Shown here: in pieces, positions 1-10,482 of the stretch | Numbering within the stretch: position 1 is the first letter of the stretch | Layout of the letters: the number at the start of each line of letters is the position of its first letter | Source: an uncultured Clostridium sp. | Lineage (GTDB): Bacteria; Bacillota; Clostridia; Lachnospirales; Lachnospiraceae | Reading direction: 5' to 3' | NCBI GenBank assembly: GCA_947643685.1 | Contig: CANRXD010000019.1 | Span: forward strand, 1 to 11,250 | DNA length: 11,250 nucleotides | Position numbers and translations under genes: made by a program | The notes under the pieces: generated by a model | Seen by the model: the letters and a program-made list of their open reading frames with translations, nothing else | The model's database searches: none | What the model was told of the DNA's origin: nothing

Positions 1-245
1 CCTGGTGGTCCAGCCGGATGCTGGGCGGCCATTACCAGAAAGCATCTTCCGGTCAGACCATGAAAATTCTGGAGCAGATACGTCTTGGAGCGGATCAGAG
101 GCTCCTTCTCATGAAAATGAAGGAGAAGGTGTTCCTGATTGGCGTCAGTCAGGCGGGAATTCAGCTTTTGGCGGAACTGGATGAAGATTTTAAAAAAGAA
201 TACGAGGCCTGTTTAAGAAAAGAAGAGGGGGACAAAAATGAATGA
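1..245 (+). CDS. fliO: Flagellar biosynthesis protein FliO (FliZ in Bacillus), C-terminal part
   Basis: Partial at the 5' side: the frame is open to the window edge (first whole codon at base 3) and ends with TGA at 243-245, so about 80 residues are visible. They form the cytoplasmic FliO domain: the stretch ILEQIRLGADQRLLLMKMK followed by FLIGVSQAGIQLLAEL matches the family pattern of a 'lg..q.l.lv...dk.lligvt..gi.ll.el' fold, then a charged tail. FliO is a small single-pass membrane protein that helps assemble the FliP ring of the flagellar export gate; the membrane segment would lie upstream of the window. The gene overlaps fliP by 8 bases (ATGAATGA), which suggests translational coupling. 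The identification rests on this domain plus position directly before fliP. An internal ATG at 18 is not the true start, because conserved-type sequence continues upstream of it. Confidence 0.85.
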   Translation, partial: WWSSRMLGGHYQKASSGQTMKILEQIRLGADQRLLLMKMKEKVFLIGVSQAGIQLLAELDEDFKKEYEACLRKEEGDKNE

Positions 246-894
246 TCTTCTGGCGGGTTTAAATGGAGGCAATGTACCGGCGCTGGAATTGATTTTCATG
301 ATCACCCTGGTGGCGTTGCTTCCGTCCATTGTAATCATGATGACTTCTTTTACAAGAACCATCATTATAATTTCTTTCACAAGAAATGCAATGGGAGTCC
401 AGCAGACACCCCCGAATATGGTGTTAGTGGGGATTGCATTATTTTTAACACTATATATTATGGGGCCTGTGATAGGAGAAATCAATGAGACCGCATACCA
501 GCCATATCTGCGTGGAGAACTTACGCAGGAAGAAGCAGTGGCTCAAATGTCTGTTCCCATGAAAGAATTTATGCTGCGAAACACGGAAAAAGCGACATTG
601 GACCACTTTGTGGAGATGTCCGGGACGGAGATACGAGAGGATGTTATGGATTATCCAATGACTATCGTGACTCCGGCGTTTATGACCAGTGAACTAAAGC
701 GGGGATTTACGGCAGGATTTCTTATTTATCTTCCGTTCTTACTGATTGATATTGTGGTAGCTACTACGCTTATGTCCATGGGAATGATGATGCTGCCGCC
801 TGCAATGGTTTCGATGCCCTTTAAACTTTTGCTGTTTGTAACTGTGAATGGATGGGAACTTCTATTTTCCAGTATTGTGAGAAGCTTCCGCTAG
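238..894 (+). CDS. fliP: Flagellar export gate protein FliP
   Basis: FliP (218 residues) forms, with FliQ and FliR, the membrane core channel of the flagellar type III export apparatus. Family blocks are all present: FTRTIIIISFTRNAMGVQQT from residue 38, then PPNMVLVGIALFLT (58-71), the FMLRNT element (111-116), PAFMTSELKRGF (146-157), and the strongly conserved LMSMGMMMLPPAM with MPFKLLLF and GW near the C-terminus (178-206). Hydrophobic segments lie at about 18-36, 61-79, 158-178 and 184-203. The length fits the short Firmicutes form (Bacillus subtilis about 221 residues) rather than the longer enterobacterial form with a cleaved signal peptide. The start ATG lies inside the end of fliO and is preceded by the purine-rich AGAAGAGGGGG. 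No defect is seen. Confidence 0.97.
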   Translation: MNDLLAGLNGGNVPALELIFMITLVALLPSIVIMMTSFTRTIIIISFTRNAMGVQQTPPNMVLVGIALFLTLYIMGPVIGEINETAYQPYLRGELTQEEAVAQMSVPMKEFMLRNTEKATLDHFVEMSGTEIREDVMDYPMTIVTPAFMTSELKRGFTAGFLIYLPFLLIDIVVATTLMSMGMMMLPPAMVSMPFKLLLFVTVNGWELLFSSIVRSFR

Positions 895-915: not shown

Positions 916-1179
916 ATGAACAACGTTGAGGTGCTGGATGTTATGTACCAGGCATTGCAGTTGATGCTGAGGCTGTCGCTGCCCTTCCTGCTTATCAGCA
1001 TGATAGTCGGCGTTGTGATTGCCGTTTTTCAGGCGGCAACGCAGATCCATGAACAAACCATTACGTTTGTTCCGAAACTGCTGACTATTTTAGCGGTTCT
1101 GGGAATTCTTGGAAGTTCTATGCTGGTAATGCTTCAGGATTTTGTCCGGATGGTTTTTGAAATGATCGCCGGGGGATGA
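916..1179 (+). CDS. fliQ: Flagellar export gate protein FliQ
   Basis: FliQ is a small two-helix membrane protein of the export gate, present in several copies around the FliP/FliR core. The 87 residues match the usual length of about 89. Two hydrophobic helices at about 18-38 and 53-74 flank the signature FQAATQIHEQTITFVPK (residues 38-54), which is diagnostic of the family. A good ribosome site GGGAGG (905-910) sits 5 bases before the ATG. It follows fliP by 21 bases and precedes fliR by 6. Confidence 0.97.
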   Translation: MNNVEVLDVMYQALQLMLRLSLPFLLISMIVGVVIAVFQAATQIHEQTITFVPKLLTILAVLGILGSSMLVMLQDFVRMVFEMIAGG

Positions 1180-1185
1180 TAAGGG

Positions 1186-1938
1186 ATGTTTATATTATTT
1201 TCCTTGATCGTCATGCGGATGACCGGAGCAGTGGCCTTAAACCCCATATTGGGAAGAAGCAATTATCCGGCCCGTGCCAAAGCTGCGTTTGTGTTTGTAT
1301 GTTCGCTAATGCTTTATTCCGGCATGTCTGAGGAGGTGTTTCAGGAACCGGCCAGTCTGCTGGAATACGGTGTGATGCTGGTTTCAGAACTGTTATTCGG
1401 ATTTGTTTTGAATTATGGAATCGAGTTATCCATTACGGTGATCCGTTTTGCTTCGGCGGTTATGGATCATGCGATGGGACTCAGTATGGCACAGATTTAC
1501 GATCCCCAGTATCGTACCCAGATGACAGTCACTTCAGGAATGTATTACGCATTTTTAATGTTGCTTTTTTTTGCTGTTGACGGTCATTTAAGACTGTTTG
1601 AGATTTTCTTTTCCACAGCCCGTCTGATCCCTTTTGGTTCTGTGTCGATCAGGCCGGAGCTTATAGAAGCGATACTGAAAATGTTCCAGGACAGTATTCT
1701 GATGGGACTTCAGTATGCGATGCCCTTGATTGCCATGGAGCTTGTGGTGGAAGTGGCAGTGGGGGTTATTATGCGAATGATTCCCCAGATTAATGTGTTT
1801 GTAGTTAATATCCAGTTGAAAATTATTGTGGGAATGTTGATGCTTCTGTTTTTGTTCAGCCCCATGTCGGATAAGCTGAACACGATTATAGATAACATGT
1901 TCCAGTCCCTTTGGAGTCTGGTGATGATGATGAGCTGA
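1186..1938 (+). CDS. fliR: Flagellar export gate protein FliR
   Basis: FliR (250 residues) is the single-copy membrane subunit that completes the FliP-FliQ-FliR export channel. Family landmarks are the N-terminal block RMTGAVALNPILGRSNYPAR (residues 11-30, compare 'R..g.....p.fg..n.P...k'), the SELLFGFVLNYG helix (about 67-78), the D-A-M-G-L-S-M-A-Q element and the C-terminal PQINVFVVNIQLKIIVG segment, plus six or so hydrophobic stretches. It starts 6 bases after the fliQ stop. An in-frame TAA at 1180-1182 rules out any start further upstream, so the first helix is about 8-10 residues shorter than in Bacillus FliR. The nearest Shine-Dalgarno-like run is GGGGG (1171-1175), so translation is probably coupled to fliQ. 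Confidence 0.95.
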   Translation: MFILFSLIVMRMTGAVALNPILGRSNYPARAKAAFVFVCSLMLYSGMSEEVFQEPASLLEYGVMLVSELLFGFVLNYGIELSITVIRFASAVMDHAMGLSMAQIYDPQYRTQMTVTSGMYYAFLMLLFFAVDGHLRLFEIFFSTARLIPFGSVSIRPELIEAILKMFQDSILMGLQYAMPLIAMELVVEVAVGVIMRMIPQINVFVVNIQLKIIVGMLMLLFLFSPMSDKLNTIIDNMFQSLWSLVMMMS

Positions 1939-1964: not shown

Positions 1965-3038
1965 ATGGCAGAGCAGGACGGGCAGGAGAAAACCGAACAA
2001 CCGACCGGTAAACGTCGAAGAGAAGCCAGAGAAAAGGGCAATGTATTCCAGAGCAAAGAGATTGTTACCATAGTTATGCTTCTGGGCGTTTTTTACGCGA
2101 TACGATTGCTGCTTCCCTTTATCTACCGCAATCTGCGGGCTTACCTGAGGTTTGTGCTGGATGGCATCGGAGGAGAGCCCGGTTCCATGTTGTCATACAG
2201 CCTCTTTGCATCTACGGCCTTCACCTTTTTAAAATGCAGCCTCCCCTTGCTCCTTTCCTCTGTGGCCCTGGGGATTTTAGCTCATGGAGTCCAGACTCGT
2301 TTTAATGTGTCATTTAAGGCATTAAAGCCTAAATTCAGTAAACTTAATCCCCTCAACGGAATAAAAAAAATGTTTTCCCTCAGGAGTTTGCTGGAACTTG
2401 TTAAAAACCTGATTAAAATTACAATACTGGGAATCCTGCTTTATAATTTGATTAAAGATGATATTGTACTGGTGGCCCGGATGATTGATATGCCGCCTTT
2501 AAATGCATGTATTCAGCTGCTTCAAATGGCGTTTCAGCTGATTCTCAAGACCTGTATGGTATTTACGGTAATCGCCTTTTTTGATTTCCTGTATCAGAGA
2601 TGGGAGTATGAGAAGGATCTGAAGATGACCAAACAGGAGGTTAAGGATGAATATAAGCAGACAGAAGGAAATCCGGAAATAAAAGGGCGTATACGAAGAA
2701 TTCAGAGACAGATGGCCCTCAGCAGAATGATGCAGAAGGTTCCGGAAGCAGATGTGATCGTAAGGAACCCGACACATTTTGCGGTGGCTTTAAAATATGA
2801 TCCCGACCGCCACGGGGCGCCGGTGGTGCTGGCAAAAGGCCAGGATGAGCTGGCTCTTCGTATTGTAAAGGTGGGAGAGGAAAACGGTGTTTTTATTATA
2901 GAAAATAAACCTCTTGCAAGAGCTTTATATGCTTCCTGCGGGCTGGATCAGGAGATTCCGGCAGAGTTCTATGGCGCAGTGGCGGAGATACTGATTTATA
3001 TTTACAGAGCAAACCACAGAGAGGATATGTTCCAATAA
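1965..3038 (+). CDS. flhB: Flagellar export switch protein FlhB
   Basis: FlhB (357 residues, normal length) sits at the export gate and switches substrate specificity from rod/hook to filament proteins. The N-terminus EKTEQPTGKRRREAREKGNV (about 8-27) is the classic FlhB start. Four hydrophobic helices follow in residues 30-210, then a charged linker (WEYEKDLKMTKQEVKDEYKQ) and the cytoplasmic domain. The self-cleavage site NPTH is intact at N268-P269-T270-H271 (bases 2766-2777), so the protein should cut itself between N and P and be competent for switching. The ribosome site GGGAG (1951-1955) lies 9 bases before the ATG. Spacing to fliR is 26 bases and to flhA 21. Confidence 0.97.
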   Translation: MAEQDGQEKTEQPTGKRRREAREKGNVFQSKEIVTIVMLLGVFYAIRLLLPFIYRNLRAYLRFVLDGIGGEPGSMLSYSLFASTAFTFLKCSLPLLLSSVALGILAHGVQTRFNVSFKALKPKFSKLNPLNGIKKMFSLRSLLELVKNLIKITILGILLYNLIKDDIVLVARMIDMPPLNACIQLLQMAFQLILKTCMVFTVIAFFDFLYQRWEYEKDLKMTKQEVKDEYKQTEGNPEIKGRIRRIQRQMALSRMMQKVPEADVIVRNPTHFAVALKYDPDRHGAPVVLAKGQDELALRIVKVGEENGVFIIENKPLARALYASCGLDQEIPAEFYGAVAEILIYIYRANHREDMFQ

Positions 3039-3059: not shown

Positions 3060-5021
3060 ATGAAAAAGATGCTAAATTACTCGGTAGTGCTGTTTGTACT
3101 AACCATTATACTTTTATTAATCATACCGCTGCCGGCCGGATTTGTGGATGTTGCAATCATATTGAATATTGCTCTTTCCATGATGATTCTGGTGACCACC
3201 ATGACAATCCGGGAACCACTGGAGTTATCGATTTTTCCGTCCCTTCTGCTGATAACCACTCTTTTCCGTCTTGGTATTAACGTTGCTGAGGTAGCGGCCA
3301 GGTTTAATCTGGATGCCATGCCAGGTAAACAGATGGCCATCGACGCAGATTTAAGCTCCGGGCTTATTAATGAACAGGAGGCGAAGGAGCGCAGACTAAA
3401 GATTCAGAGGGAGGCGGACTTTTACGGCGCAATGGACGGTGCCACAAAGCTTGTAAAGGGCGATGCTGTCATGTCGTTAATTACAACCGGAATTAATCTG
3501 ATCGGCGGAACTATCATAGGTGTCGTTCAGTCCGGGGAGACCATAGGAACCGTTTTAAATACATATTCGATCGCAACCGTGGGTGACGGACTTGTGTCTC
3601 AGGTCCCGTCCCTGCTCATATCGGTTTCTACCGGTATGATTGTAACAAGGGCAGTTTCAGAAGGCAGCCTGAACGAGGACATCTCGAAGCAGTTCATGGC
3701 ACAGCCTCATGCCATTATGGTGAGCGGTATCGCCATGGCAGTCCTTGCCTTTATTCCGGGGATGCCGGTCGTGCAGCTGCTGGTCATTTCCGTGTCTTTA
3801 ATATCAGGGGGATATTATATATCCAAAAAAATGGAGGAAGCCCCTTATGCTCCGGGAATGGCGGCCTTTCCGGATGCCGGGATGGCTTTGGAACCTCAGG
3901 CGGAGGCGGCGGCATCCCAGACAGTTTCCGAAGATGAGTATTTCAAAGATGTCAATAATGTTTACACGCTCCTGTCTGTGGAGCCCATAGAGATGGAGTT
4001 TGGATATAGCCTGATTCCGCTGGCGGATGAGTCTGTCGGAGGAAGGCTTATCAGCAGAATCGTCATATTCCGCAGACAATATGCCCAGGATATGGGCTTT
4101 GTGATCCCGTCCATCCGGCTCAGGGACAGTTCAGGGCTCAGCACAAACCAGTACTGTATTAAAATTAAGGGAGAAGAAGTGGCAAAGGGCGAGCTTCTGG
4201 TGGATTATTATCTGGCTCTGGAGCCGGAGAATCTGGAGAAAGAGGTGGATGGAATCGAAGCCATTGAGCCTGCTTACGGAATTCCAAGCCGGTGGATCCG
4301 GCCGGAGGACAGGGAGCGGGCAGAGCTGTACGGATATACAGTTATCGATCCTCTTTCTGTAATGGTAACGCATCTTTCAGAAATCATACGGCAGCATGCT
4401 TTTGAGCTTGTGACAAGACAGGAGGTTATCCGCCTCATTGAAAATGTGAGGAAGACTTCACCTGAGCTGGTTGAGGAGGCGTTTCCGAATCTTATTTCCT
4501 ATAATTTGTTTCAGCGGGTATTGACAGCCCTTTTGAAGGAAGGCGTGCCGGTTAAAGACCTGGAGACCATAATAGAAACCATGATAGAAACCATTTCCGA
4601 GACAGGGCTTCCTGTCCGGGATTTTGACGGAATTATTGAGCAGATACGTGTGGCGCTGAAACGGACCATTACCAGGCTTTACTGCGAGGACGGAAGCATG
4701 AAGGTCATCACCCTGGATACAGAGCTGGAACGTACCATGGCAGGCTCCATACAAAAGGGAGAGAGTGGACTGTATCTTGCTTTGCAGCCTGATATAATCC
4801 AGAGCATTATAAGCCAGATGGCCGAACAGATGAAAAAATTTAACGGCCTTACCCAGAGTCCGGTAATTTTGACCTCACAGGTTATGCGGATCCATTTTTA
4901 CCATTTAATTGAGCAGTTCTATCCGAAAGCGCGTGTTCTGTCATTCAATGAGATTGCAAATAATGTACAGATACAATCAATCGGCAGTCTCCGGCTGGAG
5001 GAGGCCAGAAACCGTATGTGA
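3060..5021 (+). CDS. flhA: Flagellar export protein FlhA with an internal ~55-residue deletion
   Basis: FlhA is the large export-gate subunit: eight membrane helices, a cytoplasmic FHIPEP loop, then a C-terminal domain that docks chaperone-substrate pairs. Here (653 residues) helices 1 and 2 are clear (about 8-26 and 28-48), followed by FPSLLLITTLFRLGINV (59-75). The sequence then passes at once to AEVAARFNLDAMPGKQMAID, the FHIPEP loop. In Bacillus and Salmonella FlhA, as I recall them, 53-58 residues lie between these blocks: the end of helix 3, a loop, helix 4 and the VITKGA element. They are absent. The rest looks normal: loop residues K130 and D135 (Salmonella K203 and D208), helices at about 136-156, 178-196, 218-236 and 237-254, an Ala/Pro-rich linker (260-290), and a full C-terminal domain from about 295. 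GGATGGAG (3044-3051) is 8 bases before the ATG. The identity is certain; function is doubtful. Confidence 0.97.
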   Translation: MKKMLNYSVVLFVLTIILLLIIPLPAGFVDVAIILNIALSMMILVTTMTIREPLELSIFPSLLLITTLFRLGINVAEVAARFNLDAMPGKQMAIDADLSSGLINEQEAKERRLKIQREADFYGAMDGATKLVKGDAVMSLITTGINLIGGTIIGVVQSGETIGTVLNTYSIATVGDGLVSQVPSLLISVSTGMIVTRAVSEGSLNEDISKQFMAQPHAIMVSGIAMAVLAFIPGMPVVQLLVISVSLISGGYYISKKMEEAPYAPGMAAFPDAGMALEPQAEAAASQTVSEDEYFKDVNNVYTLLSVEPIEMEFGYSLIPLADESVGGRLISRIVIFRRQYAQDMGFVIPSIRLRDSSGLSTNQYCIKIKGEEVAKGELLVDYYLALEPENLEKEVDGIEAIEPAYGIPSRWIRPEDRERAELYGYTVIDPLSVMVTHLSEIIRQHAFELVTRQEVIRLIENVRKTSPELVEEAFPNLISYNLFQRVLTALLKEGVPVKDLETIIETMIETISETGLPVRDFDGIIEQIRVALKRTITRLYCEDGSMKVITLDTELERTMAGSIQKGESGLYLALQPDIIQSIISQMAEQMKKFNGLTQSPVILTSQVMRIHFYHLIEQFYPKARVLSFNEIANNVQIQSIGSLRLEEARNRM

Positions 5022-5045
5022 TTATAGCGAAGGTGGGTTAAGATA

Positions 5046-5816
5046 ATGCAAAAGGGAATGAAAGAAATGACAAATGAAGAGCTGTTTGTCCTTTACCAGA
5101 AAAACAAAGACCCGGAAATCAAACAGGAACTGACGCTCCGGTATCTCTATCTGGCTAAGTCTGTGGCGATTCAGATGAACAATCTGTATTCTGACTTTAT
5201 GCAGATGGAAGATATCATTCATGAAGGCATTATCGCGATCATGAAAGGTATTGACCGGTATGATCCTGAGCGTGACAGCAAATTTGAAACATTTATTTCT
5301 CGCCGCATAAGAGGAACCGTGATAGATATTATCCGCCAAAGCAACTGGGTGCCAAGAAATTACCACAAGGATCGTCAGTCTATTGAAAATGCAAGACAGT
5401 ATCTGTACGAAAAACAGGGGCGTAACCCTACCGATGAGGAGGTTGCGGGATATTTAAAGATGAATCTGAAGAAATTCCAGCGGATTCAGCGGATGAGCAC
5501 CATGGTGAATGTACTTTCTCTGGATATGATAACCAGGGGAGACGAGACCGGACCTGCACTTCAGGTTCCAAGCGACGATATTGCGGGGCAGCCGGAGGCT
5601 GTTTTTGTTAAGGGTGAAACGGTAAAAACTCTGATTGAGGCGGTTGACAAACTGAAAGAAAAAGAAAAGCTGGTAATTTCTCTTTATTATGTAGAGGAAT
5701 TAAGCATGACTCAGGTGGCTCAGATCTTAAATGTAAGTGAGCCAAGGATTTCCCAGATCCACAGTGAGGCGATCCGAAAACTGAAAGCATATATGAAATC
5801 ACATCTTGGAGAATAA
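5046..5816 (+). CDS. fliA: RNA polymerase sigma factor for motility, FliA/SigD family
   Basis: A 256-residue sigma-28 type factor that directs transcription of late flagellar and chemotaxis genes. Region 2 spans about 31-105, with DFMQMEDIIHEGIIAIMKGI and YDPERDSKFETFISRRIRG, then the WVPRN element typical of FliA/SigD. Region 3 is around 112-150 (ARQYLYEKQGRNPTDEEV). Region 4 is about 193-250, with the helix-turn-helix LSMTQVAQILNVSEPRISQI (219-238) that reads the -35 element. Of the clustered ATGs (5046, 5058, 5067), the first is chosen because AAGGTGG (5030-5036) lies 9 bases upstream. It follows flhA by 24 bases, where Bacillus has flhF, flhG and several che genes. No anti-sigma factor FlgM gene is in view. 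Confidence 0.93.
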   Translation: MQKGMKEMTNEELFVLYQKNKDPEIKQELTLRYLYLAKSVAIQMNNLYSDFMQMEDIIHEGIIAIMKGIDRYDPERDSKFETFISRRIRGTVIDIIRQSNWVPRNYHKDRQSIENARQYLYEKQGRNPTDEEVAGYLKMNLKKFQRIQRMSTMVNVLSLDMITRGDETGPALQVPSDDIAGQPEAVFVKGETVKTLIEAVDKLKEKEKLVISLYYVEELSMTQVAQILNVSEPRISQIHSEAIRKLKAYMKSHLGE

Positions 5817-5834: not shown

Positions 5835-6674
5835 ATGTATCAGGGATTTTATAATCTTGCTTCTGGTATGCTTACCCAGAGCCGGAATTTGAATGTGGTC
5901 AGCAATAATATGGTAAATCTTCAGACCGCCGGTTATAAGCGGGATCAGATGGTTTCCAGCACCTTCCAGGAGGAGATGCTTTACCGTACCGGAAGACGGG
6001 CGAAGGGAACACAGGAACCTCTGGCCACAACATCGAAGATCCGCACCGCTTCCAGAACCTATGTAAATTATGACCAGGGAAGTTACGAGACCACCGAGGG
6101 CATTTATGATTTTGCAATTGGCGGAAAGGGCTTTTTCTGTATTCAGACGCAGAATGGGGTTCAGTACACCAGAAACGGCTCCTTTGCCGTAGACGAGGAG
6201 GGATATCTCGTTCAGGGAGAAAACGGCAGGGTACTTTCGACAGAAGGCCAGCCTATCCGGATTGAGAATGAGAATTTCACTGTGGACGCTTACGGCCATA
6301 TTACGGCTCCCGCGCAGATAAATGCCGATGAGACGGATCCTGAAGGAACAGATCCTGAAGATACAGGTGCCGGGGGAGCGGATGGAAACGGGGGAATCCT
6401 TGATTTTGGAACGATCCGGCTTGTGGACTTCGCCGATTATGAGCAGCTTCATAAAGAAGACAACGGACTTTTTTCCACAAATCAGGCGGCGACTCCTGTC
6501 ACCGGAGGGGAAACACAGATTCTCTGGAAAACACTGGAGAAATCCAATGTTGACATGGTAAGTGAAATGACCGCGATGATGTCTTCCCAGAGGGCCCTTC
6601 AGAGTGCGGCCCAGGTATTGAAAATGTATGATACGATTATGGGGAAATCCGCGTCAGATGTAGGAAGAGTATAA
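5835..6674 (+). CDS. Flagellar rod/hook basal body protein, FlgF/FlhO type
   Basis: A 279-residue member of the flagellar hook/basal-body family, exported without a cleaved signal peptide and built into the rod. The N-terminal rod domain reads YNLASGMLTQSRNLNVVSNN followed by MVNLQTAGYK, the standard 'sgm.a....l.visNNlaN..T.GyK' motif. The middle has IGGKGFFCIQ and VQYTRNGSFAVDEEGYLV (about 95-127), typical of FlgF/FlgG. The C-terminal helix VDMVSEMTAMMSSQRALQSA (239-258) is the conserved coiled-coil rod segment. An Asp/Glu/Gly-rich stretch at about 164-187 includes a tandem repeat and is probably a surface loop. The ribosome site AAGGAGGAGGAG (about 5818-5829) is strong. With the next gene it resembles the flhO-flhP pair of Bacillus; which of the two corresponds to FlgF or FlgG cannot be settled from one sequence. 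Confidence 0.88.
   Translation: MYQGFYNLASGMLTQSRNLNVVSNNMVNLQTAGYKRDQMVSSTFQEEMLYRTGRRAKGTQEPLATTSKIRTASRTYVNYDQGSYETTEGIYDFAIGGKGFFCIQTQNGVQYTRNGSFAVDEEGYLVQGENGRVLSTEGQPIRIENENFTVDAYGHITAPAQINADETDPEGTDPEDTGAGGADGNGGILDFGTIRLVDFADYEQLHKEDNGLFSTNQAATPVTGGETQILWKTLEKSNVDMVSEMTAMMSSQRALQSAAQVLKMYDTIMGKSASDVGRV
6333..6362 (+). repeat. Tandem duplication of a 15-base unit inside the rod protein gene
   Basis: Two adjacent imperfect copies, 6333-6347 and 6348-6362, share ACnGATCCTGAAGnn and encode TDPEG-TDPED. They lie in the acidic loop of the rod protein. The near-identity at the DNA level suggests a recent duplication that keeps the frame. Confidence 0.8.
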
Positions 6675-8624: not shown

Positions 8625-9560
8625 ATGAAAAAAGAAAAGGAAGGCATTTTGCTTGAGTCTGGAACGAATGAAATTGAAATCATGAAGTTCACGATCCAGA
8701 ATGAATTTTACGGCATTAATGTGGCAAAGGTCAAGGAAATTATGATGAGTCAGAAGGTAAAATCCATGCCTCATGCCAACCCGTCCGTAGAGGGAATTTT
8801 CAAACCAAGGGATACTCTGATCACAGTCATTAATCTGGCATGCTATCTTTCGGGAGAGCCGGTAGAAAAAGGAGCCAGGGATTTATTTATCGTGACCAAC
8901 TTTAATAAAATGACAGTGGCATTCCGCGTTCAGGGAATTGAAGGGATCAGCCGTATCTCCTGGGGAGATATCCAGAAGCCGGATAAAACCATAGCCAATG
9001 GAGATGAAAGCATAGCCACAGGAATTGCCCAGTGTGATGGTCAGCTGGTTACCATCCTGGATTTCGAGAAGATTGTGGCGGAGCTTGCTCCGGAAACCAG
9101 CATTCAGGTTTCAGAGGTAGATGCCATGGGAGACCGGCCTTTAAATGAGGCGCCCATTGTGATTGCGGAGGATTCTGTTCTGCTCAGAAAAATGATTGAT
9201 GATTCTCTGGAGAGGGCAGGATTTACCAACATACAAAATTTTGGAAACGGAAAAGAGGCCTGGGATTATCTCGCTTCTATTAAAGATGATTCTGATTTAT
9301 ATGAAAAAGTCAAACTTGTCATAACAGATATTGAAATGCCTCAGATGGATGGCCACCGTCTCACAAAGCTGATTAAGGACGACTCCAGACTCAGAAAGAT
9401 TCCTGTCATTATCTTTTCATCTCTGATCGACGAGCAGATGCGAAGAAAAGGAAAGGAACTGGGAGCAGATGATCAGCTGGCAAAACCGGAAATTGGACGT
9501 CTGGTGATGATGATGGATAAACTCCTCAAGGAATATGAGGAGGAAAGAGCAAGGGGGTAA
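8625..9560 (+). CDS. cheV: Chemotaxis coupling protein CheV (CheW domain plus receiver)
   Basis: At 311 residues this has the length and order of CheV. A CheW-like domain covers about 13-155: EIEIMKFTIQNEFYGINVAK, then VEGIFKPRDTLITVINLACYL and DGQLVTILDFEKI. A CheY-type receiver covers about 176-305. Receiver residues are all present: acidic pair E182-D183, phospho-acceptor D235 in VITDIEMPQMDG, S265 at the Thr/Ser switch position, and K287. It would couple chemoreceptors to the kinase CheA and adjust that coupling when phosphorylated. AGGAGG (8613-8618) overlaps the cheD stop and lies 6 bases before the ATG. The C-terminus ends in a charged KEYEEERARG tail. No separate cheY, cheW or cheA is seen in the window. 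Confidence 0.93.
   Translation: MKKEKEGILLESGTNEIEIMKFTIQNEFYGINVAKVKEIMMSQKVKSMPHANPSVEGIFKPRDTLITVINLACYLSGEPVEKGARDLFIVTNFNKMTVAFRVQGIEGISRISWGDIQKPDKTIANGDESIATGIAQCDGQLVTILDFEKIVAELAPETSIQVSEVDAMGDRPLNEAPIVIAEDSVLLRKMIDDSLERAGFTNIQNFGNGKEAWDYLASIKDDSDLYEKVKLVITDIEMPQMDGHRLTKLIKDDSRLRKIPVIIFSSLIDEQMRRKGKELGADDQLAKPEIGRLVMMMDKLLKEYEEERARG
9551..9557 (+). promoter_or_regulatory. Ribosome site deciding the start of the wall-binding protein
   Basis: AAGGGGG, just before the cheV stop, is 10 bases upstream of ATG 9568. That start gives a clean signal peptide, whereas the in-frame ATG at 9535 inside cheV would add 11 charged residues ahead of it. Confidence 0.55.
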
Positions 9561-9567
9561 TGCATAT

Positions 9568-10482
9568 ATGGAGAAGGGGAGCCGTATCCTGTTTGGAATG
9601 TTGTCTGCCGTGGCTTTTGTTTCCCTGGCATTCCCCATCCGTTCTCTGGCCGCAAATGGCACCTGGGAACTCCAGAAGGACGGAAAACGCTGGAAATATA
9701 TGTATTCTCCCGAAGAATATGCCGCGGATGAATGGATTGAGGACCAGGGAAAAGAATATTATGTGGATTCCAGCGGATACATGCGTACAGGATGGGTAAC
9801 GGATAAGGATGATAATGCGCGTTACTACATGGGGAAAGATGGTGCGAAATGTTTTAATACCTTTACTCCAGATAACCATTATGTGGGGCCTGACGGACTG
9901 GTCCTGGAGATGTTTGATATATATCGCAAGCAGGTATCAAAACAGTTGAAGACATTTGCCAATAAAAAGGCCAGGGATACGGAACAGCATGGCTTTCTGC
10001 TGACAGATTTAAATAATGATGGATACAGGGATATTGCGGTATTCGATAATTCCATATTGCCAGAGCATGTTTTGCAGGTAGCAGTGTGGATGCCTGAGGA
10101 GGAGGAACTGGTTGTTCTGTCAAATTCTGATTCCGATGCGGCAGAGCATTCCTTCCTTACCTATAATAAGGAAGAGCAGGTAACCTATCTTACAATTCTG
10201 GAGGAGAGTGGGGGAAGAAATTACTTTTCTCTGGAGAAAGGGGAATATAATTTCGGAAATGCACTGAGCCTGGAACTTAGTCAGAACGACTGGGGAGATC
10301 CGATATATTATGTGAATGGGGATAAGATAAAAGCAGAGGAACTGGAAAAAATACTTGAAACAATGCAGGCCCAGACGGGCGGGCCGTTTTCTGAGCAGAT
10401 ACTTCCGGTAAATGAAGAGAATATAAAACTGAAAGTGGATTGCAGCCCCTCTGAGGATGAACTTTCCCTGTGGCAGCCTTGA
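9568..10482 (+). CDS. Secreted protein with cell-wall-binding repeats and a DxNxDG loop
   Basis: Starting at ATG 9568 the protein has 304 residues. Residues 1-28 form a signal peptide: charged MEKGSR, a hydrophobic core, then a type I cleavage site SLA/AN. Residues 30-97 hold aromatic/Gly repeats of the choline/glucan-type cell-wall-binding family (WELQKDGKRWKY, then W56 to G75 with YYVDSSGYMRTGW, then YYMGKDGAKCF). Next comes DLNNDGYRD (147-155), a D-x-N-x-D-G calcium-type loop as in FG-GAP/VCBS or EF-hand-like repeats. The remaining mixed alpha/beta region (160-304) I do not recognise. It begins 7 bases after cheV, so it is probably in the same transcript. A surface or wall-bound protein is well supported; any link to motility is inference from position only. 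I see no catalytic motif and no transmembrane anchor at the C-terminus. Confidence 0.8.
   Translation: MEKGSRILFGMLSAVAFVSLAFPIRSLAANGTWELQKDGKRWKYMYSPEEYAADEWIEDQGKEYYVDSSGYMRTGWVTDKDDNARYYMGKDGAKCFNTFTPDNHYVGPDGLVLEMFDIYRKQVSKQLKTFANKKARDTEQHGFLLTDLNNDGYRDIAVFDNSILPEHVLQVAVWMPEEEELVVLSNSDSDAAEHSFLTYNKEEQVTYLTILEESGGRNYFSLEKGEYNFGNALSLELSQNDWGDPIYYVNGDKIKAEELEKILETMQAQTGGPFSEQILPVNEENIKLKVDCSPSEDELSLWQP

Follow-up and report, generated by a model that had tools for sequence, protein, structure and literature searches.

An flhA Gene Lacking 54 Codons in a Lachnospiraceae Flagellar Operon: Most Probably a Private, Non-Functional Copy or an Artefact of Sequencing

The Locus and the Gap in flhA

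The window, that is, the whole stretch of DNA analysed here, consists of bases 1–11,250 of contig C19 from an uncultured Clostridium sp. of the Lachnospiraceae, the assembly of which (genome label G000) has 368 contigs and is about 60% complete. It contains a flagellar operon with the order fliO, fliP, fliQ, fliR, flhB, flhA, and this fliPQR-flhB-flhA context is the one that marks an FlhA gene. The flhA open reading frame (ORF) extends from 3060..5021 on the forward strand, as do all features given below, and encodes 653 residues. It carries a 162-base in-frame deletion.

The size of the loss is set by comparison with P0002, an intact relative of 707 residues: exactly 54 codons are missing, in frame. 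Outside the gap, P0002 and the window FlhA are 99% identical, with nine differing aligned positions. An earlier note, made from the letters of this DNA, had claimed an in-frame loss of 53–58 residues at TTLFRLGINV-AEVAARFNLDAMPGKQ, and the comparison turns that estimate into an exact figure. Alignment with 13 chosen relatives confirms the gap, as follows. Twelve of the relatives have 54 extra residues after N74. The remaining one, P0032, has 48 and carries a gap of its own. The numbering check in the earlier note likewise holds, with R70, K130, and D135 corresponding to R85, K203, and D208 of Salmonella FlhA.

The spacing of conserved motifs gives the same picture. The distance from an R-x-G-x-N motif to PGKQM is 66 in 211 of the 213 homologues listed by two protein searches (about 8,000 proteins scored in each), 60 in P0032, and 12 in the window protein alone. 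At 156 loci with a usable ORF, some of which repeat one gene, the spacing is 65–71 in 141 and 12 in three copies of the window; for the other 12 loci, it was not measured, as the left motif was unmatched. The Pfam FHIPEP profile matches the window FlhA in two pieces, positions 1–61 and 115–656. A search for the missing block at other places in the window's genome, in an assembly only about 60% complete, gave nothing, and the same query matched two other genomes; displacement of the block to another place in the genome was rejected as a candidate explanation on this basis.

What the Deletion Removes and What Stays

The deletion removes the end of transmembrane helix 3, a periplasmic stretch, and helix 4. 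Of the eight-helix membrane domain of an FlhA, helix 4 is therefore absent and helix 3 is a stump, encoded at 3234..3278; residues 59–73 are helical in the model of the deleted protein, and residues 59–83 in that of the intact protein. In the hydropathy profile, the strongest peak of P0002 (3.25, residues 104–122) has no counterpart in the window protein. The earlier note had described the loss as including one helix. The end of helix 3, the loop, and helix 4 are indeed gone, but that account overlooked the equivalents of R94, N137, and R147 of Salmonella FlhA. Residues R79, Q118, and R128 of the intact protein align with R94, N137, and R147 of PDB chain 36hw, and all three are inside the deletion. 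Chain 36hw is presumably Salmonella FlhA, judging from the published letters at these positions.

Conserved residues are among those lost. Among 45 aligned FlhAs, the R94 column has R in 42, the N137 column has Q in 41 and N in 4, and the R147 column has R in all 45. Conservation reaches at least 90% at 20 of the 54 positions removed, and five of the 20 are invariant. The available text of PMC8179193 gives R94, K203, D208, and D249 (Salmonella numbers) as conserved charges of FlhA. The R94 equivalent is deleted in the window protein, and K130, D135, and D176 keep the equivalents of K203, D208, and D249. The equivalent of R85 is also retained.

The remainder of the protein is recognizably FlhA. 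The FHIPEP signature stretch, AEVAARFNLDAMPGKQMAIDAD, is kept at 3285..3350, without the Arg that precedes it (Salmonella R147). The cytoplasmic domain, FlhAC, is encoded at 3975..4994 (residues 306–645) and is modelled as in solved FlhAC structures. The protein is thus collinear with FlhA (TIGR01398, PF00771) over its remaining 653 residues, with the signature, the cytoplasmic domain, and the fliOPQR-flhBA operon of the family, and differs from it in lacking the 54 residues. The two profiles register this differently: the PF00771 score, 681 bits, is far above the cut-off of 29.1, whereas the TIGR01398 equivalog score, 658.8, is under the cut-off of 772.1, which the intact relatives P0002 (782.3) and L150 (788.2) both pass. 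Scored as both, the window protein does better as FlhA than as SctV, the member of the same family found in injectisomes, and unlike SctV/EscV it sits in a flagellar operon.

In AlphaFold models, the mean predicted local distance difference test score (pLDDT) of the membrane domain is 68.6 for the deleted protein and 84.3 for the intact one. A fold-library search with the membrane domain returned, as its strong rows, structures of the cytoplasmic domain, and hence was uninformative; the solved chains 36hw and 12dv came solely from a sequence search.

Functional studies of FlhA bear on what such a loss would mean. In the available text of PMC3139655, the R94A mutant does not restore motility in complementation, releases no FlgD into the supernatant, and has a dominant-negative effect. 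A preprint (2026; PMC13308203), in the part available, describes helices 2–6 of FlhA as the compact core of the nonamer, reports N137 to be essential, and lists R147 as one of the charged residues that function requires.

The earlier note also proposed that loss of a helix would flip or unseat the FHIPEP loop. Such a flip need not occur. Should the 15-residue stump of helix 3 fail to span the membrane, two passes would be lost rather than one, and the FHIPEP loop could, from the modelled helices, stay in the cytoplasm. One can imagine a working, compact FlhA with six passes, a non-spanning helix 3 stump, the FHIPEP loop and cytoplasmic domain in the cytoplasm, and export without the R94 side of the proton path. 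We consider such a protein very improbable. It would lack residues whose single mutation stops function in Salmonella, as the available parts of PMC3139655 and PMC13308203 have it, as well as the five invariant positions, and its deletion falls in helices 2–6, the reported core of the nonamer. In the homologue EscV, replacement of TMD5 or TMD6 (transmembrane domains 5 and 6) abolishes function according to the available text of PMC8369761; these changes were laboratory swaps. Finally, no other protein or genome with the deletion is among the matches listed.

How Rare Is the Deleted Form?

In a region search with residues 52–103, the window protein reached 94 bits and the runner-up 85 (best 120 of 7,999 candidates); a remote homologue sharing the gap might come far down the ranking in such a search. 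A 53-residue junction peptide found matches in 144 of 391 genomes of the class and in 323 of 398 genomes of the phylum, two samples that overlap and both of which include G000. The window itself matched at E = 2.1e-29, and the best match outside G000 had E = 5.4e-13 and 7.1e-13 in the two surveys. No match to the whole peptide outside G000 is among the matches listed in either survey. A few genome matches reach peptide residues 6–53 or 7–53 and lie in full-length FlhA open frames (e.g., 684 and 687 residues). We read these, which were not examined singly, as probable alignments of helix 4 to helix 3.

Taking the region search, the motif spacing, and the two genome surveys together, no second case of the deletion is among the matches listed. 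A deletion characteristic of a lineage was rejected for this reason, and the lineage-specific compact FlhA that the earlier note had offered as one outcome is not supported; the deleted form is listed on one contig. Viral contigs were scanned for an intact gene and no relative was found. Nor did a search of the literature on FlhA membrane deletions and on natural or helix-lacking variants (titles and abstract openings, with few subscription papers covered) yield a natural helix-less FlhA.

The contig listings raise the question of an artefact. That is, a chimeric read or library molecule, or gap-filling at low coverage, may have joined sites 162 bases apart. We regard this as a real possibility, though not the favoured one. 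A single contig, of 11,250 bases, is listed for the deleted FlhA, the assembly is fragmented and about 60% complete, and an intact protein of 99% identity exists (P0002). An FlhB identical to that of the window is listed on five contigs, the longest of 66,822 bases, and thus probably on four besides the window's; the count concerns FlhB only, and the contig column appears to count that exact sequence. Other FlhAs listed on single contigs also have in-frame gaps relative to P0005: 6 residues in P0032 (inside helix 4), 7 in P0015, 13 in P0175, and 22 in P0158. In the other direction, a k-mer assembler, if one was used, needs a junction-spanning molecule to join across three to four matching bases, as textbooks have it; no comparable defect is seen in the other window genes relative to the intact relative G792; and, as noted, no other contig of the assembly yielded the missing block.

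The Neighbouring Genes

G792 has a collinear partner for all 14 window genes. The fliO gene at 18..245, 75 residues as read, probably starts outside the contig edge. Then follow fliP (238..894) and fliQ (916..1179), both aligning end to end with G792; fliR (1186..1938), of which 249 of 250 residues align; and flhB (1965..3038), also end to end. The claim that the neighbouring gate genes are intact is thus upheld. Beyond flhA are genes for a FliA-type sigma factor, two FlgF/FlgG-like rod proteins, cheC and cheD, a CheW plus receiver-domain protein, a choline-binding-repeat protein, and the start of a ParA-like gene. The contig edges truncate fliO and the ParA-like gene, and the genes between these two align with G792 end to end or nearly so. 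Apart from the 54 gap positions in flhA, the alignments with G792 have gaps in just three genes: 20 and 2 positions in the two rod genes, and 2 in the gene for the choline-binding protein.

Three features of this segment may be recorded. The FliA-type sigma gene is directly 3′ of flhA (window 5021-5046), with no intervening flhF/flhG, and the same is true in G792. The first rod-type gene (5835-6674) is the one with 20 gap positions relative to its G792 partner. The choline-binding-repeat gene (9535-10482) lies 3′ of the chemotaxis genes and is collinear in G792.

The Junction and the Rest of the Gene

The deletion junction is at 3281..3284, CGTT, with a breakpoint that is ambiguous over GTT at 3282-3284 (the V75 codon) and perhaps over CGTT. 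G792 supplied the nearest intact DNA compared at the junction. Its left side reads AATGTT followed by TCT, and its right side GAGCGCGTT followed by GCG; the window reads AACGTT followed by GCT. Hence the two breakpoints have GTT in common, or CGTT if CGC stood in the lost right flank. With random breakpoints and equal bases, the chance of sharing at least three bases is ~0.05, and at least four, ~0.016. The earlier note suggested a direct repeat, GTTGC(T). This repeat is unsupported because the left copy, GTT or GTA, goes on with a serine codon, TCN, in five of five intact relatives; on the DNA of those five, a longer direct repeat at the junction was rejected.

Has the rest of flhA begun to decay? 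The pairwise ratio of nonsynonymous to synonymous substitution rates (dN/dS) with G792 is 0.071 for flhA, a value bracketed by those of the neighbouring genes, which run from 0.048 to 0.297. With synonymous divergence this high (0.47 to 1.31), a recent change of constraint would be invisible in this measure. Compared with P0002–P0005, the window FlhA has a single private residue at positions where those four are identical; a further three private residues fall in a variable linker, at alignment columns 321, 323, and 325, where the four differ among themselves. Faster decay was thus looked for, in the private residues and dN/dS, and none was seen; a recent deletion would leave none. With only one private residue at positions where P0002–P0005 agree and three in the linker, the deletion is probably recent.

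Flagellar Genes in Relatives

The one further genome from this genus, which is 96% complete, gave no match to FlhA, FliP, or flagellin. In the genus of G135, of the same family, 10 of 17 genomes have an FlhA match and 7 have none. Across the family, FlhA matches occur in 211 of 397 sampled genomes, and in 166 of 320 among the well-completed ones. Flagellar genes, as judged by these matches, are often absent in this group, and therefore a broken flhA may well be tolerated.

Two other loci deserve mention in their own right. In G797, contig C52, 19530-21644, FlhA matches fall in several separate open frames of one contig, as if by frameshift, perhaps through sequencing error. G800 has two FlhA types, 53% and 78–79% identical to that of the window (contigs C209, C231, and C236); the 78–79% type is split over contigs, and contamination of 9% is listed.

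Discussion

The window FlhA most probably represents either a private, non-functional mutant or an artefact of sequencing, rather than a new kind of FlhA. Our proposal is that it is, with fair probability, a real, private loss-of-function allele, as follows. A 162-base in-frame deletion would have occurred recently in one Lachnospiraceae strain, between short matching stretches, GTT or at most CGTT. The product would keep its cytoplasmic domain and lack, from the proton path and inner charge ring, the residues equivalent to R94, N137, and R147. Such a protein would be expected to fail in flagellar export because the end of helix 3, the periplasmic stretch, and helix 4 are gone together with those three residues. 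Impaired export, one of the outcomes in the earlier note, would thus be the likeliest result.

Several points weigh against this proposal. The presence of the deletion in the genome is an inference from the assembled contig. The deleted protein's cluster has two member sequences, one of them examined. The deletion is in frame, which has a 1 in 3 likelihood by chance, and the rest of flhA and of the operon looks constrained, like a working gene. The predicted template modelling score (pTM) is reversed relative to the pLDDT: the deleted form scores 0.52 and the intact one 0.48. The window's genome also retains a flagellin gene, on contig 75. Lastly, B. pertussis is described, in the available text of PMC6520453, as able to be motile despite a stop codon in flhA; therefore, a damaged flhA is no proof of non-motility. 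The in-frame length favours function about three-fold over chance, and this is outweighed by the lost essential residues, the uniqueness of the deletion, and the frequent absence of flagellar genes.

The B. pertussis gene is the nearest parallel, as a lesion of flhA in a genome that keeps other flagellar genes. There, the same text places the stop codon 1,313 bases in and says that it occurs in all annotated genomes of the species, whereas the lesion in the window is in frame and in the membrane domain. EscV offers a parallel of another kind, in that altered membrane helices abolish function in a member of the same family (PMC8369761, available text).

As a private loss-of-function allele or an artefact, the deleted flhA has little importance beyond illustrating a possible route to the decay of motility genes in this family. 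It also carries a caution: a clean ORF with an over-threshold Pfam match can conceal a broken protein. If the compact form did work, the model of FlhA as a proton-driven motor would be directly challenged, because residues reported to be essential are absent, and the helix 3/4 hairpin and the R94 part of the proposed proton path would be dispensable in some export gates.
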